From Candidatus Absconditabacterales bacterium (GTDB lineage: Bacteria; Patescibacteriota; Gracilibacteria; Absconditabacterales; Absconditicoccaceae): a stretch of DNA of 64,000 nucleotides. Location of the stretch: contig JANWWO010000002.1 in assembly GCA_025057375.1 (NCBI GenBank), positions 1 to 64,000 on the forward strand. The letters are read 5' to 3'. The position numbers and the translations under genes are program-made. Shown here piece by piece: positions 12,455 to 43,126 of this stretch; the stretch's first letter is position 1; the number at the start of each line of letters is the position of its first letter. The notes below the pieces were generated by a model. The model saw only the letters and a list, made by a program, of their open reading frames with translations, was not told where the DNA came from and searched no databases.

Positions 12455-12588
12455 GTTGGTTGATACTCATGCATGTGTCTGTAGTATATCTTGAGCTTGC
12501 ATTTCCCCCAAAAAATCCTAGAACAAAAGAAGAGAGATGATAGTGTGCTAGGTTGCTATGTCTCATTTTAGTCCTGATAATATCGTTG

Positions 12589-14751
12589 ATGATTAGTCTC
12601 TTGGCCCAAAAAACATGAATGCCAGAACAGCGTGTTCGCACGATTGTTGCATTGCTTGAAGAGGGGAGTACGATACCATTTTTGGCGCGTTATCGTAAAG
12701 AGCAGACTGGATGAGCTACAGATACACAGCTTCGTGAATTTGAGAGGATGTATGTATACCAAAAAAATCTAGAAGAAAAAAAAGCTGATATTATTCGTAT
12801 TTTGACTGAAAAGTGATTACTTACATCCTCGATCGAGCTCGCAATCAGTCAAGCTACGACCTTGGCAACATTGAATGATATTTATAGACCATTCAAAGAA
12901 AAAAAACATACAAGAGCGACGAAAGCTCTCGAAAAATGACTCAAACCACTTGCTGATGCATTGCTGGCGTGTCGTATGGATATTGATGATTTTGATGTGT
13001 ATGCGCAGAGCTTTGTGCGTGATACTGGTGATGAAAAAACATCTGTCCGCGATATCGATGAAGCTATTGATGGGGCGATTGATATTGTTGCAGAGATGAT
13101 TGCTGATCGTGCAGACATTCGTCAATGGATCAAACAGACACATCGTGGACGTGTGATTTTGACTGCTAAACCGACAAAAACATTTGATCCTCACGGTGTG
13201 TATGCAACCTATCAATTGTTCAAAAAACCTCTTTTTCAAACTCAAAGTTATGCCTATCTAGCATTAGCAAGAGCAGAAAAAGAAAAGCAGTTAAGCTTGA
13301 GTGTGCATTATCCTGAAGACGATATTATTAGCTATGTGGAGTCGTTGGTTATTCCTCCTGATTATGGGACTGTGGTCGATTATTTGCAAGATGCCGTCGA
13401 GGATGGGATAAAGAGACTCTTACTGCCCTCACTGACCAATGAAATGAGGTCCGAGCTCAAAGAAGAGGCTGATAGACAGGCAATCGATGTTTTTGGGACC
13501 AATGTCCAAGAGTTGTTGCTTGCTCCTCCCGTCAAAGGAAAGATCATCATGGGTGTTGATCCTGGTATCAGAACGGGAAATAAAATTGCGATCATTGACT
13601 CAACCGGGTCAGTCCTTGCTTTTTCTGTTATTTTTACAACGCCTGATGATGATGATAAGCTCGCTCAACTTCTGATACATTATAAGGTGGACATTGTGTC
13701 TTTGGGGAATGGAACTGGCTGTAGAGAGGTTGAAGCAATGATAGCTCGTGTGATCAAAAACAACAATCTTATGACCAAGTTTATCATTGTTTCTGAAGCA
13801 GGTGCATCTGTCTACAGTGCATCAGAACTCGCTTCACAAGAATATCCGGATCTTGATGTGACGATTAGAGGTGCTGTCAATATTGGTCATAGGTTGCAAG
13901 ATCCCCTATCTGCTCTCGTAAAAATTGATCCCAAATCACTTGGTATCGGTCAATATCAGCATGATGTGGATCAGCATCTTCTGCATGACATGCTTGACAA
14001 AAAAATCCAGGATGCCGTCAATCGTGTTGGTGTGGACGTTAATACCGCATCAGTTGCCATTTTGTGTCATATTGCTTGATTAAACAAAAAAACGGCACAG
14101 GCCATTGTTGATTATCGTACCGCTCACGGTCCCTTTGTCTCCAGGGATCAATTCAAACAGGTCCCTGGCATCTGACCAAAGACTTTTGAGCAGTGCGCAT
14201 GATTTCTTCGTATTCTCAATGCACACAATCCTCTTGACCAAACAGGCATCCACCCAGAACAATATGAGCTCACAAAAAAAATACTTACTGATGAGTATGG
14301 TGTTGATGTTGCTACCCTGACCGTTCCGTTTGTTCTTGAGGATGTGGATTATGATCGTTTGGTGAGGAAGTATGGTGTTGGTGAAGAGACAATTAGAGAT
14401 ATTGTCCGTGAACTTGCCAATCCCTGACTTGATCCTAGGACAGAGTTTCCTGAACAACAATTTCGTTCTGATGTCTTGAGTTTTGAGCATGTGAAGGTGG
14501 GAATGGTGCTGACAGGTATTGTGAGAAATGTCGTTGATTTTGGTGCGTTTGTGGATATTGGACTCAAAAATGATGCTCTACTACATAAATCTCAAATGGC
14601 AGACCGCTTTGTATCTAATCCGTTTGAGATTGTCCAAGTAGGACAGACCGTAACTGTTCGTGTTCTGACGATAGTTCCCGAAAAACAACACATCAACCTG
14701 ACGATGAAAACACCTGAGGAGGGCAGACTATGAGATATCAACGTGTGATAG
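12589..14751 (+). CDS. tex: Tex family RNA-binding transcription accessory protein
   Basis: 720 residues, near the usual length. The N-terminal helical domain has VRTIVALLEEGSTIPFLARY and the RKEQTGG motif. A YqgF/RuvC-like domain with GVDPGIRTG begins near residue 320. A helix-hairpin-helix pair follows (VDYRTAHGPF, then QFKQVPGIGP near residues 510-540). An S1 domain closes the protein (GMVLTGIVRNVVDFGAFVDI to about residue 714). Tex binds nucleic acid and affects transcription; its exact reaction is unsettled. ATG 12589 is the earliest start before an in-frame stop and keeps the conserved N-terminal helix. About 10 of 45 glycines are UGA by hand count. Confidence 0.95.
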
Positions 14752-37616: not shown

Positions 37617-40305
37617 TTATTCTCACGATTTTTTCTCATATACTGTTCGTTCGATCGTTGTATCGTCACGACGTTTTACATAGACTCTCAGTGTTTTCCC
37701 AGGAACAAAAAGCTTTCTTCGCTCGTCTTTGGGGAAGTGGTCGATGATCTCGGATTTATGTAAAAGTCCGACGCTATCTTCTACTTGGATCATACAGCCA
37801 TAATTTTTTGTATGGACGATGGTGCCGATATACGGAGTTTTGTATGCGAGCGGGATGCGTCATGGTCATGAGGTTGGAATTGGTTTATCAACGGGATCAG
37901 GTGTTCCGGTAAGACCAAAATCCATATGTCATTCTTTGTGTTGAGTGGTTTTCTTTGTTGGTGTGTTTTTTGAGCGAGTATGAGGTTGATTGCGAAGAGT
38001 TTTTGTCGTCTCTGATGCAGGGGATTGTTCTGATAGAGGTGTTGTTACTTCTTTTTTACGTGCTTTGCTCTGAGTGGTGGTCTGTGAAATGAGATGATCA
38101 GATGATTGTGTGGAAGTGTTGCGTGAGATTTTTATTGTTTCAGGTTGTTTTTGTGTTGTTTTAGAGTTTTTGGGCTTTTCTTCTGTTTTTTTGACTGCGA
38201 GGGTTGATGGTGACGAGATTGTGACATGTGATTTTTTTTCAGACGTTCATCATATTGCTTGTGGTGTGGTTTGTTTTTGTGTGTCTGACGACGTAGTGGT
38301 GTTGTCTCTGCGAGGTGCTGCATACTGTTCACGTGTTTGTGCAATGATTGCTTGTTTCATCTCTTCGTTATCTGGATGTGTGACCAAGGCTGTTTGCATC
38401 ACAAAAGGGGCAAGAGGATTGCCCTGTATTGTTAATTTTGCATAAGCACGAAATTTTGGAAGGGACAGAAAATCGTTTGCGAGTAATTCATGCCCAAATT
38501 GATCAGCAAGGATACGAGCATCATCAATGCCAACGGTAAATGCGATCATCGATCCAATATTTCCAAAAATTGCTTGTTTGATCCCATCAGGGAGTTGGGA
38601 TGTGTATTGATGTGCCATGATGAGAGCAAGTTTATATTTTCTTGCTTCAGAGAGGATAGTCACAAAGGAATCATTCACAAAATTTTGGAACTCGTCAATA
38701 TAAAGGGCAAAAAACCTTCTCTGACTGGCATGTATGTTTGCTCTTGCCATTGCGTCAATTTGTATTTTGGTTGTTATCAGACTTCCTAGTAGGTTGGCAT
38801 TATCTTCCCCTATTTTGCCTTTTGAGAGATTGATCAAAATGATTTTGCCATTATTCATTGCATCAGCCATCACAAAATTGCCTTGTTCCGTACCAAGGAT
38901 AGCTCTGATAATTGGGGAAGAGAGACATTGTCAGATCTTGTTGGTGATAGGTCAGATGGATTCTTGAATTTGTTTTTCACTCCATTTCCCAAATTCATTG
39001 ATCCAAAAATCTAAGAGAACTTCATCACGAACATAGTCTGATACAATCATCGTACGAAATGCTTTGTCAGTCAAGATTTTTTGGACAGAAAGCATCGTGG
39101 CACGCGGATATTCTATTACTGATAAAAGCACATTTCTTAAAATATACTCAAGTCTCGGTCATCGGGAGTTGGAAAACAGTTTGGCAAAAGTGGTCAGGAT
39201 TCCTGATGCTACGAGATTTTTTTGCTCCTGTGTTTGATATGAAAAGAGAGAAAAGGGAATAGGGTTGGCGGTATCTCCCACATCATACCAAATTACATCC
39301 TGGAGACGATGAGAGGGAATTTTGCCTACAATGCCTTCGACAAGCTCGCCATGAGGATCGAGGACACATAGTCACGCACCATCAGCAATATCATTGAGAA
39401 TCAGATTTGAAAGCAATGTTGATTTTCCTACTCATGTTTTTCCCACAATATAGAGATGACGACATTTGTCTTCTTGACTCAACCCAAAAGGACGGGAGGG
39501 GTTTTTTATCATCTGTATAGCCAATAATTCCTCCTTGATGTGTTAAAGATAGTGGTGCAGGTGGTTTTTTGTAGCCAATAGTAGCCATATTTGGTAAGGT
39601 GAGACCTTGTGGAAGGTGGATGAGGGGGGTGAGTTGATCAAGAAAAACGGGGACTCGCTGGCGGCGTGTTCCTACTTCGATAGATCACGATTGGATAATA
39701 GTGCCAAGCGAGGTTGTAAGGAGTGTTTGGATATTTGATTTATTGATTTGCGATCATTGATAGGAAAATCCAATGCTTACAAGACGACGGGGAAGAGAGA
39801 AACGAGGATCTTCTTCGGTGACCATATTGACAGTACGATTGGGTGCACGAAAAAGGAGAGTATCAAGAAACGATCATGTGTCTACTTTCGTCTCAATTCG
39901 GACGATGAGTGTATCCGTTTCAGGGACACGATCAAAGCATAAGAGGAGTTGATTGAGTGGATTGAGTCCTGTTCCTGTGCTATACTGGTCCATGGTGCGT
40001 CGCATGGTGCCCGATGACCAATGAAAAAAAGATTTGGGTGTTTGGGGTTTCTGTTTTGTTTCAATAACTTGCGCATAGGGATACAAACTATCAAATCAGA
40101 GCAAAAAATTTGATACTGACGCAGAGGGGAGTGCGATATTACAGGTGAAGGACTGTTTATTTCCTACAAAATATCGATGAGCAGTCTCAGCATAGCCATT
40201 GATTTGAGTCAGGAGTGCGTGTGCCTGAGCTCGTCCATGATCATTAGTAGGAAGAGGAAGGAGGCTAAGATGATGCATGCAGTTCACTGATGAGAAGTAA
40301 AGCAT
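37617..40305 (-). CDS. TraG/VirB4-like conjugation ATPase with C-terminal S1 domain, apparent frameshift
   Basis: From ATG 40305 the frame covers an N-terminal domain of about 265 codons to a run of six A at about 39511-39516 (minus); the rest continues in the next frame to TAA 37617-37619. The joined protein is about 895 residues. The second part has Walker A GKTGVGKST, CVLDPHGELVEGI, and Walker B ALYIDEFQNF, with a DUF87/TraG-like order, then FGNIGSMIAFTVG. After a Pro/Thr/Lys/Ser-rich linker of about 120 residues, the last 60 residues form an S1-like OB fold (IGTIVHTKNYGCMIQVEDSV, then GLLHKSEII). Such ATPases drive DNA or protein transfer in type IV secretion-like systems. The frameshift may be a sequence error, slippage, or a true break. 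Confidence 0.75.
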
Positions 40306-40492
40306 ATAACAGAATAATATGAGTATAGCGATTTTCCTACAAAATGCAAATCCAAGCGTGATCGATACGTTTGTCGTGTTTTTTCCAAAAAACACTAGTA
40401 ATTACGAAAAAAATCGCTATAAAACTATAAAAATATCCATAGTATACTACACTTAAATAGTATCTGGCATTTTATTTTTCGTTGTTGTGTAT

Positions 40493-43126
40493 ATGCTAAT
40501 TCATGAATTTGAGTTTCGCTATCAAGCCTATCGTTGACTAGCATTTCATGCTGGACTAGACCGGAGTCAGGATCTTCTTTTTTCTTTGGTTCATATCAAT
40601 GAAGACATTCCTGCGCCTGCTGCGATCAATACGATTCAGCCAGACGAATTAAAGCGTCTATCTCAGGAAACCTATCATCATCACAAACATATATTTCTTG
40701 CAGACCATGGATATATGCCTGTTTTGGAAGCAGGATTGCCGTTGGCAGAGTATATTCATCGTCTTGAATACGAAATGTATGTCATCAAACATATGGGTTT
40801 TATTCCGTATATGTTGGTTGTTGCAGATTATGTGCGTGCAGCAAGAGAGATGAAGATTGTCGTCTGACCAGGAAGATGATCGTGAGCGTGATCAGTGTTG
40901 GCTTGGTGTTTGATGATTACTGATGTGGATCCACTACAGTATGGATTACTTTTTGAGCGTTTTTTGAATCCAGCTCGTATTTCGATGCCTGATTTTGATA
41001 TCGATTTTGAAGACTCTCTGAGAGAAAAAGTGATCCAGTACGTGACCCAAAAATATGGAAGTGATAATGTATGTGCGATTGGAACCTATATGCAACTTGC
41101 ACGTAAAGCTGCCTTTAAGGATGTCGCAAGAGCGATGGGAATGAGTTTTGAAAGGGCGAATTATCTTACGACATTACTGCCTGAAAAAATAGGGATTGAT
41201 GAAGCAGTTATGAGCACCGATGATGAGTATGCAGATTTTCGTTCAGCTTACAATCATGATCAACTGTTTGCGCAAACACTTATGTATTCTCAGCGTCTTG
41301 AAGGGAATCTTCGTCAGCTTGGTGTGCATGCCTGTGGCTATATTATTGCTCCTGATGCGATTGTCAATTATACAGCATTGTTTGATGGATGACCCAAAGG
41401 GATGGTAGCACATGCGGATGGTCATGTTCTTGAGGATTTGGGTTTGCTAAAAATGGACTTTTTGGGTTTAAGGAACCTTTCTGTCATCAAAAATTGTTGT
41501 AAAATTATCAAAGCGAGGAAAGAGCTTTATGGTGTCTCATTTTTTGAAAACACGCACCCTTCGCTTGCCTCATTTTGGTCAGTGTTGGATCATTTTTTCG
41601 AGACGATGTTGTTCCATCCACCGATGGATGATGCGTATGTGTTTGAGACTGTTTTTAAGGCGTGAGATACCAGTGGGATTTTCCAATTTGAGTGAGAGGG
41701 GATAAGAAAATTTTTGGTCCAACTCAAGCCAACGGATATCAATGATTTATTTGCGATGAATGCACTTTATCGCCCCTGACCTCTTGAATTTATCCCGATG
41801 TATATTCGTAGAAAACATGGGGAAGAGGAGATTTCCTATATGCTATCTGAGTTGCGTGATGAGCTTGTTGCTCTGTATTGACCAGATTGTGTCGAAGAAG
41901 AAAAAAAGAAACTGACTGAGGATTTGGGTCCTATTATGGATGTGACGTATGGGATCGCTGTGTATCAAGAGCAATTGATGCTGTTGGTTCAGAGAATGGC
42001 AGGATTTTCGTTGGCGGATGCAGACTTATTGAGAAGATGAGTGGGGAAAAAAAATAAAGAAGTAATTGAAAAACTCAAAGGAGAATTTGTTCACAAGGCT
42101 GTCAATTTTAGACAATATAAACCAGAAACAGCACGTGTGATTTATGAAAAAATGATTGAGCCAGCGGCGAGTTACTCATTTAATAAGTCTCATTCTGTGT
42201 GTTATGCGTTGATTGCCTATCAGACTGCGTATCTCAAAGCATATTTTCCACTTGAGTTTTATGCAGCATTATTACGTAGTGTTGAAGAAGATACCGAAAA
42301 ATTGGGTCAGTTTATCAATGAGGTTATTGATCATGGTATTGAGGTGAGATGCCCTTGCGTCAATGCATCATTTTGTCATATTGCGGCAGTTGATCATCAT
42401 GTCCAGTTAGGATTTTTGTGTATCAAAGGCATTGGATTGACTATCGCTGAGTGATGTGAACAAGAAAAAAGGATGAATGGTCGTTTTGCATCAATTTCAG
42501 ATTTTTTGCGTAGATGCAAGCCATGGATCAACAAAAAATCACTTGAAGGACTGGTCTATGCAGGTGCTTTGGACTGTTTTCATGATCGTCAAACATTGAT
42601 CGACAATATTCAGTCGATGCTTGATTTTGCAGCTTATGATCATGATGATGGTGGGTGACTTTTTGGGGATGTGGTCGAACAGACGTGCAACATCCGTATC
42701 TCTTCTCATCCCTTATCACAACGTGAGCTTGGAATGATGGAATATACAATGTTCAAAGCGTTTGTTTCCTATCATCCTTTCAATTATTGTTATCCTCTCC
42801 TCAAAAAATATAATTTTTTGCAACAAGTACTTGCTGAATCATTTTCGGGTGCCTTTGTGATTCATGCGATTGTGCTTGGAATCCAAAGAGCAAAAAAAAA
42901 GTGATTTTTTGTCATGATCGAAGATAGTACGACCAGATATGAACTATTTTTCAAAAATAAAATGGATTTTGAGGTAGGGACAATGCGAAAGATGAGTGGT
43001 TACAAAAGTGGAAGATATTTATCACTTGAGACTATCACTGTGATTGATTACTCTCTTTGGCGAGAGACGAATAAAGACAAACGGTCTCGCGATTATCCTG
43101 TTTGGATAGTGAAGAAGATGAGATAG
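40493..43126 (+). CDS. dnaE: DNA polymerase III alpha subunit lacking the PHP domain
   Basis: 877 residues. It begins where other DnaE proteins end their PHP domain: within the first 105 residues comes YIHRLEYEMYVIKHMGFIPY, then VVGPGRGSGAGSVLAWCLMI (glycines mostly TGA). The palm Asp pair is MPDFDIDF near residue 165 and the third Asp is LLKMDFLGLRNL near 320. The middle has GIFQFEG and the thumb/fingers motifs YGIAVYQEQLML and SYSFNKSHSVCYALIAYQTA. The C-terminus holds a tandem HhH-like region and an OB-like tail. Canonical DnaE has about 1150 residues. No PHP-encoding frame lies upstream, where the TraG-like gene diverges. A TATACT box lies at 40443-40448. Confidence 0.93.

Follow-up and report, generated by a model that had tools for sequence, protein, structure and literature searches.

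Type IV coupling proteins (T4CPs) of the VirD4/TrwB type, such as TrwB of R388 (1e9s), comprise a RecA-like ATPase with an all-alpha domain between the Walker motifs, a variable C-terminal domain and two N-terminal transmembrane (TM) helices. The protein described here shares this ATPase layout and a variable C-terminal domain but, unlike VirD4/TrwB, begins with a soluble N-domain of ~300 residues, ends in a predicted S1 domain and is encoded without linked relaxase or T4SS genes. Substrate recognition in T4CPs falls to the C-terminal domain, and some T4CPs have no membrane domain, among them TraJ/TraI of pIP501, which are likewise T4CP ATPases but belong to conjugative plasmids, with some using small membrane partners and no S1 tail mentioned (PMC7434980). 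In Patescibacteria, most VirD4 homologues of the same superfamily lie away from virB4 and may have been exapted (PMC12102498), and the passages on them do not mention an S1 tail; the S1-tailed subgroup was found only in Absconditabacteria among the genomes we sampled. The T4SS of Southlakia epibionticum is without a recognisable coupling protein (PMC10633639). HerA and CedD translocases resemble our protein in the HerA central domain and in belonging to the hexameric translocase superfamily, but the window protein and its relatives fall far under the NCBIfam cut-offs, and no nuclease or Ced partners were seen. The S1 domains of bS1, PNPase, GSP13/CvfD and Tex match its tail in sequence profile and predicted topology, although here a disordered linker joins the domain to an ATPase of the translocase type. 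Those of bS1, GSP13 and Tex tether to ribosomes or mRNA; S1/OB folds bind single-stranded DNA and proteins too.

The gene lies on the minus strand of the window, the 64,000-nt stretch of DNA analysed, and was read with genetic code 25 (TGA = Gly), as table 11 breaks the region into fragments and was rejected. Table 25 gives an open stretch of 641 codons (39542–37617) with 11 in-frame TGA codons read as Gly; shuffling the bases of the segment 200 times gave no open stretch longer than 212 codons. Its product carries a Walker A motif (GKTGVGKST, ~39443–39417), a DPHG motif, a Walker B motif (LYIDEF, ~38705–38688) and then the C-terminal tail GTIVHTKNYGCMIQVEDSVGLLHKSEI, which bears the motifs NYG and GLLHK and is followed directly by the stop codon (37617–37619). 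Every ATPase residue that is invariant across the family alignment is kept, whereas the F of NYGxF is replaced by M.

The interval 37617–40305, taken as one gene reading by the earlier note, covers two frames, the portion upstream of ~39500 not sharing the frame of the ATPase. A profile of the relatives' N-domains that leaves out the window sequence picks up that upstream frame (E = 2.8e-11, against 1.5 for the runner-up in the window), and the alignment is colinear; the N-terminal domain (39511–40278, minus strand, start possibly 40308) is thus part of this gene, which a +1 shift interrupts at an A6C4 run (39507–39498). The relatives are unshifted here, a single ORF covering both N-domain and ATPase in 31/31 complete loci, so a conserved programmed frameshift was rejected and the split is a frameshift in the window copy or an assembly indel, not two genes by design. 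The same genome encodes a second, intact S1-tailed copy on contig C11 (L057:9090–11837) and a third VirD4-like ATPase copy that is degraded, with an in-frame TAA and frame changes (G000:C1:36297–37273), which suggests expansion and decay of the ATPase family in this genome. Given these two further copies, the one in the window may be a duplicate in decay; it is probably either a recently frameshifted extra copy or an intact gene with an assembly indel. For the window copy only, the odds that it is a functionless pseudogene, with the intact C11 copy doing the work, fall a little short of even: the frameshift between its N-domain and ATPase, the plain degradation of the C1 copy and the long branches of both the window and C11 copies in the tree all fit this account, but the frame stays open over 641 codons with the invariant ATPase residues in place, the homopolymer at the shift site makes an assembly indel possible, and the window branch is shorter than that of the C11 copy (0.91 vs 1.58).

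The ATPase core (38319–39497, minus strand) scores 30.9 bits with Pfam DUF87, the HerA central domain (cut-off 23.2), and 23.1 bits with TrwB_AAD_bind (cut-off 20.5), which with Walker A and B identifies a RecA-like nucleotide-binding domain as in T4CPs; TraG-D_C is just under its cut-off in the window protein (21.3 vs 22) and above it in the relatives. An AlphaFold model of the window protein made with 24 relatives was well resolved over the ATPase part, and its top Foldseek matches were all TrwB of R388 (1e9s/1gl6; E ~3e-12, target TM 0.61–0.65). The model includes the all-alpha domain, as helices at residues 99–224 between Walker A (28–36) and Walker B (272–279). The ATPase is therefore closer to TrwB/VirD4 than to VirB4, and the VirB4 part of the label given by the earlier note was dropped: the homologue from RAAC1_SR1_1 reaches 25 bits with the VirB4 model TIGR00929 (cut-off 643), and a VirB4 scan of the window's genome left the window gene unmatched, its best match (70.8 bits) being on contig C16. 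The HerA model NF040819 gave 16.7 bits against a cut-off of 970, and the best NCBIfam match of the RAAC1_SR1_1 protein was the DNA-translocating ATPase CedD, far under cut-off. For the N-terminal domain, no Pfam match was found in the proteins scanned and no PDB sequence match was better than E = 0.039.

Beyond the ATPase, a low-complexity linker rich in Thr, Ser, Lys, Pro and Gln (37845–38309, minus strand) is predicted to be disordered (pLDDT ~30); at ~155 residues it is longer than the 120 residues first estimated. The C-terminal domain (37620–37850, minus strand) is assigned an S1 (OB) fold from profile matches and predicted structure. The window tail scanned alone reaches 22.3 bits with Pfam S1 (cut-off 22, E = 1.7e-4), and full-length relatives 23.5 and 29.8 bits, with the C11 copy under the cut-off at 19.7. 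The tail profile A1, which includes the window sequence itself, scores 84.5 bits at 37629–37850, and another from which that sequence was left out still places this ORF ahead of every other in the window (E = 2.8e-7). In the PDB, the tail profile finds bS1 at E = 6e-24 and the PNPase S1 domain 1sro at E = 8e-9. In the AlphaFold model, window residues 564–615 are predicted as strand-strand-strand-helix-strand (block pLDDT 61–84), the last S1 strand not being confident; the model of a relative, L094, has five strands with a helix between strands 3 and 4 (E919–928, E931–936, E939–944, H956–959, E965–976, E979–985). NYG and GLLHK are invariant in the tail alignment, with NYGxF and LLHK as conserved positions, and the tails are only mildly positive in net charge, at −2 to +7. 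The earlier note's central claim, an S1-type tail on the ATPase, here taken as TraG/VirD4-like, is thus supported by the Pfam score, the tail profiles and the predicted topology. As an observation on the wider set, most S1-tailed proteins have an extra domain of ~150 residues between ATPase and S1 (~736–880 in L094, where it is without a Pfam match, and in its relatives), missing in the window copy and several others.

The tail was found in 32/33 sampled genomes of the window's family, Absconditabacteria/SR1 (84–138 bits), the sole exception (G002) having its ATPase at a contig end. Most named loci of the family are titled SR1, Absconditabacteria, Gracilibacteria or uncultured bacterium. N-domain, ATPase and S1 form a single ORF in 31/31 complete loci, including RAAC1_SR1_1, so that the architecture the earlier note proposed to look for in other Absconditabacteria is present there, and the tail is not a separate gene in these relatives. 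The note's parallel proposal for Gracilibacteria yielded nothing outside this family: neither the 159 other genomes of the class nor the phylum-wide sample of 380, which partly overlaps the class sample, gave a tail match above 50 bits. Matches under 50 bits fell mostly in frames of ~360–840 aa, a size range fitting bS1 and PNPase, and the ORFs of seven phylum matches retrieved as loci contained no ATPase motif. A tail common to the class or phylum was accordingly rejected, only generic S1 proteins scoring outside the family. In a search of genome contigs, 35/37 loci belonged to the S1-tailed Absconditabacteria group; the remaining two are from Saprospiraceae (29% identity), and the fused architecture was not seen in their ORF scan. 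The S1-tailed architecture is therefore specific to Absconditabacteria among the sampled genomes.

Phylogenetically, the S1-tailed ATPases form one clade (support 100/96) beside homologues without S1 that belong to other families in the class, with the exact sister group weakly supported (81/21). Elsewhere in the tree lie a soluble group lacking S1 and the paired TM-bearing proteins of G000, G005, G009, G010 and G012. Mean pairwise identity across 30 proteins is 71% for the ATPase, 67% for S1, 59% for the region just past the ATPase, 37% for the N-domain, 36% for the mid domain and 18% for the linker; the identity of S1, near to that of the ATPase, indicates a constraint close to that on the catalytic core.

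The S1-tailed proteins have no N-terminal TM helix of the kind that marks T4CPs. In L100, L114 and the C11 copy, hydrophobic stretches are confined to long extensions at the N-terminus, the starts of which are uncertain; in L124 and L126, the N-domain itself contains an amphipathic or hydrophobic segment. An N-terminal helix is present in 7/12 S1-less homologues of the class and absent from 5/12, and a strict rule by which the membrane helix was swapped for S1 was rejected on this ground. The 20-kb regions around the gene in 14 relatives revealed no conserved neighbour, and specifically no T4SS gene, nuclease or ComEC as such; membership of a T4SS operon was rejected. The window gene likewise stands alone, does not adjoin virB4 and lies outside any conjugation or T4SS locus.

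We put a probability of about 0.4 on the reading that the protein is a T4CP-like ATPase with an ancestrally acquired S1 tail that docks RNA or ribonucleoprotein onto the motor. In the common ancestor of Absconditabacteria, the C-terminal tail of such an ATPase would have been replaced or extended by the S1 domain. The ATPase would form a TrwB-like hexameric motor, and the S1 domain, on its flexible tether, would bind RNA or ribonucleoprotein and present it to the motor, or else regulate that motor, at the membrane's inner face. This role for S1 is modelled on the C-terminal domains of T4CPs, which handle their substrates; since those domains recognise substrates and T4CPs lacking a membrane domain are known, S1 may likewise serve as a tethered docking module. 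Counted against RNA docking are the ability of S1/OB folds to bind single-stranded DNA and proteins as well, the only mildly positive charge of the tail, the lack of a conserved T4SS or other neighbour in the regions compared, and, in the window copy, the F-to-M replacement in NYGxF and the broken frame. Furthermore, one might expect variation in a cargo receptor, whereas the tail is highly conserved, as would suit a fixed partner, for instance the ribosome, just as well.

That partner is central to a rival that we consider unlikely but worth weighing: S1 may tether the ATPase to ribosomes or mRNA, giving it a role in RNA- or translation-linked processes and not in envelope transport. The bS1 domains are the closest S1 relatives in the PDB, the S1 domain is conserved almost like the ATPase, as would suit a universal partner, and both an N-terminal TM helix and T4SS neighbours are absent. 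Nonetheless, the fold is TrwB-like and not that of an RNA helicase, and the amphipathic or hydrophobic N-domain segment in several members (L124, L126) suggests a membrane. We are more doubtful of a DNA translocase of the HerA/FtsK/CedD kind, acting on taken-up or own DNA, with the S1/OB fold binding single-stranded DNA or a protein partner. The HerA central domain is over its Pfam cut-off, CedD is the best, though distant, NCBIfam match in RAAC1_SR1_1, and uptake of host DNA is thought to occur in Absconditabacteria (PMC8080830); however, the tail matches RNA-binding S1 families and not SSB-type OB folds, and neither a nuclease nor ComEC is a conserved neighbour.

Absconditabacteria are parasitic or predatory bacteria, and in the improbable case of a dedicated RNA or ribonucleoprotein translocase, the S1 tail would capture RNA and the motor would move it across the envelope, to or from prey. 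To our knowledge, RNA transport is not established for type IV machines; if the hypothetical RNA cargo, at which the earlier note hinted, proved true, the kind of transport would be new for them. A chance S1-like similarity or gene-prediction artefact, to which the window tail's bare passing of the Pfam cut-off (22.3 vs 22) might point, is negligibly probable and already refuted by the relatives, which carry the same tail in 32 genomes, fused in 31/31 loci and with Pfam scores up to 29.8 bits. Patescibacteria are rich in stand-alone VirD4-like ATPases, and this subgroup bears a domain of predictable chemistry, so that what such ATPases move or regulate can be asked directly, as the question of which nucleic acid the tail binds. 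A search of open-licence PMC papers gave no account of an S1-bearing T4CP, an absence that is weak evidence; the earlier note knew of no established conjugation ATPase with such a tail.

Several further features were recorded among the homologues and in the window's genome. The S1-less homologues L077 and L078 (class family f6) carry an extension of another kind at the C-terminus (ALDPQGGCFTRNPDQ), a further case of a lineage-specific tail on this motor, and a soluble group of ~750 residues from the same superfamily (L138–L143), without TM or S1, includes several members ending in an acidic motif, e.g. FEEPLI. On contig C6 of the window's genome (7.8–16.3 kb), two adjacent TM-bearing VirD4-like ATPases neighbour a protein that seems, from its C-terminus, to resemble a VirB2-type pilin, a probable T4SS-like locus. 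Within the window, a ~730-codon ORF on the plus strand (12544–14748) ends in an S1 domain (61 bits), which together with the ORF's size gives it a Tex-like look. Finally, an 879-aa DnaE-like ORF (40487–43126, plus strand) has DNA_pol3_alpha, finger and HHH_6 domains and no PHP domain, its N-terminus being either missing or encoded elsewhere.
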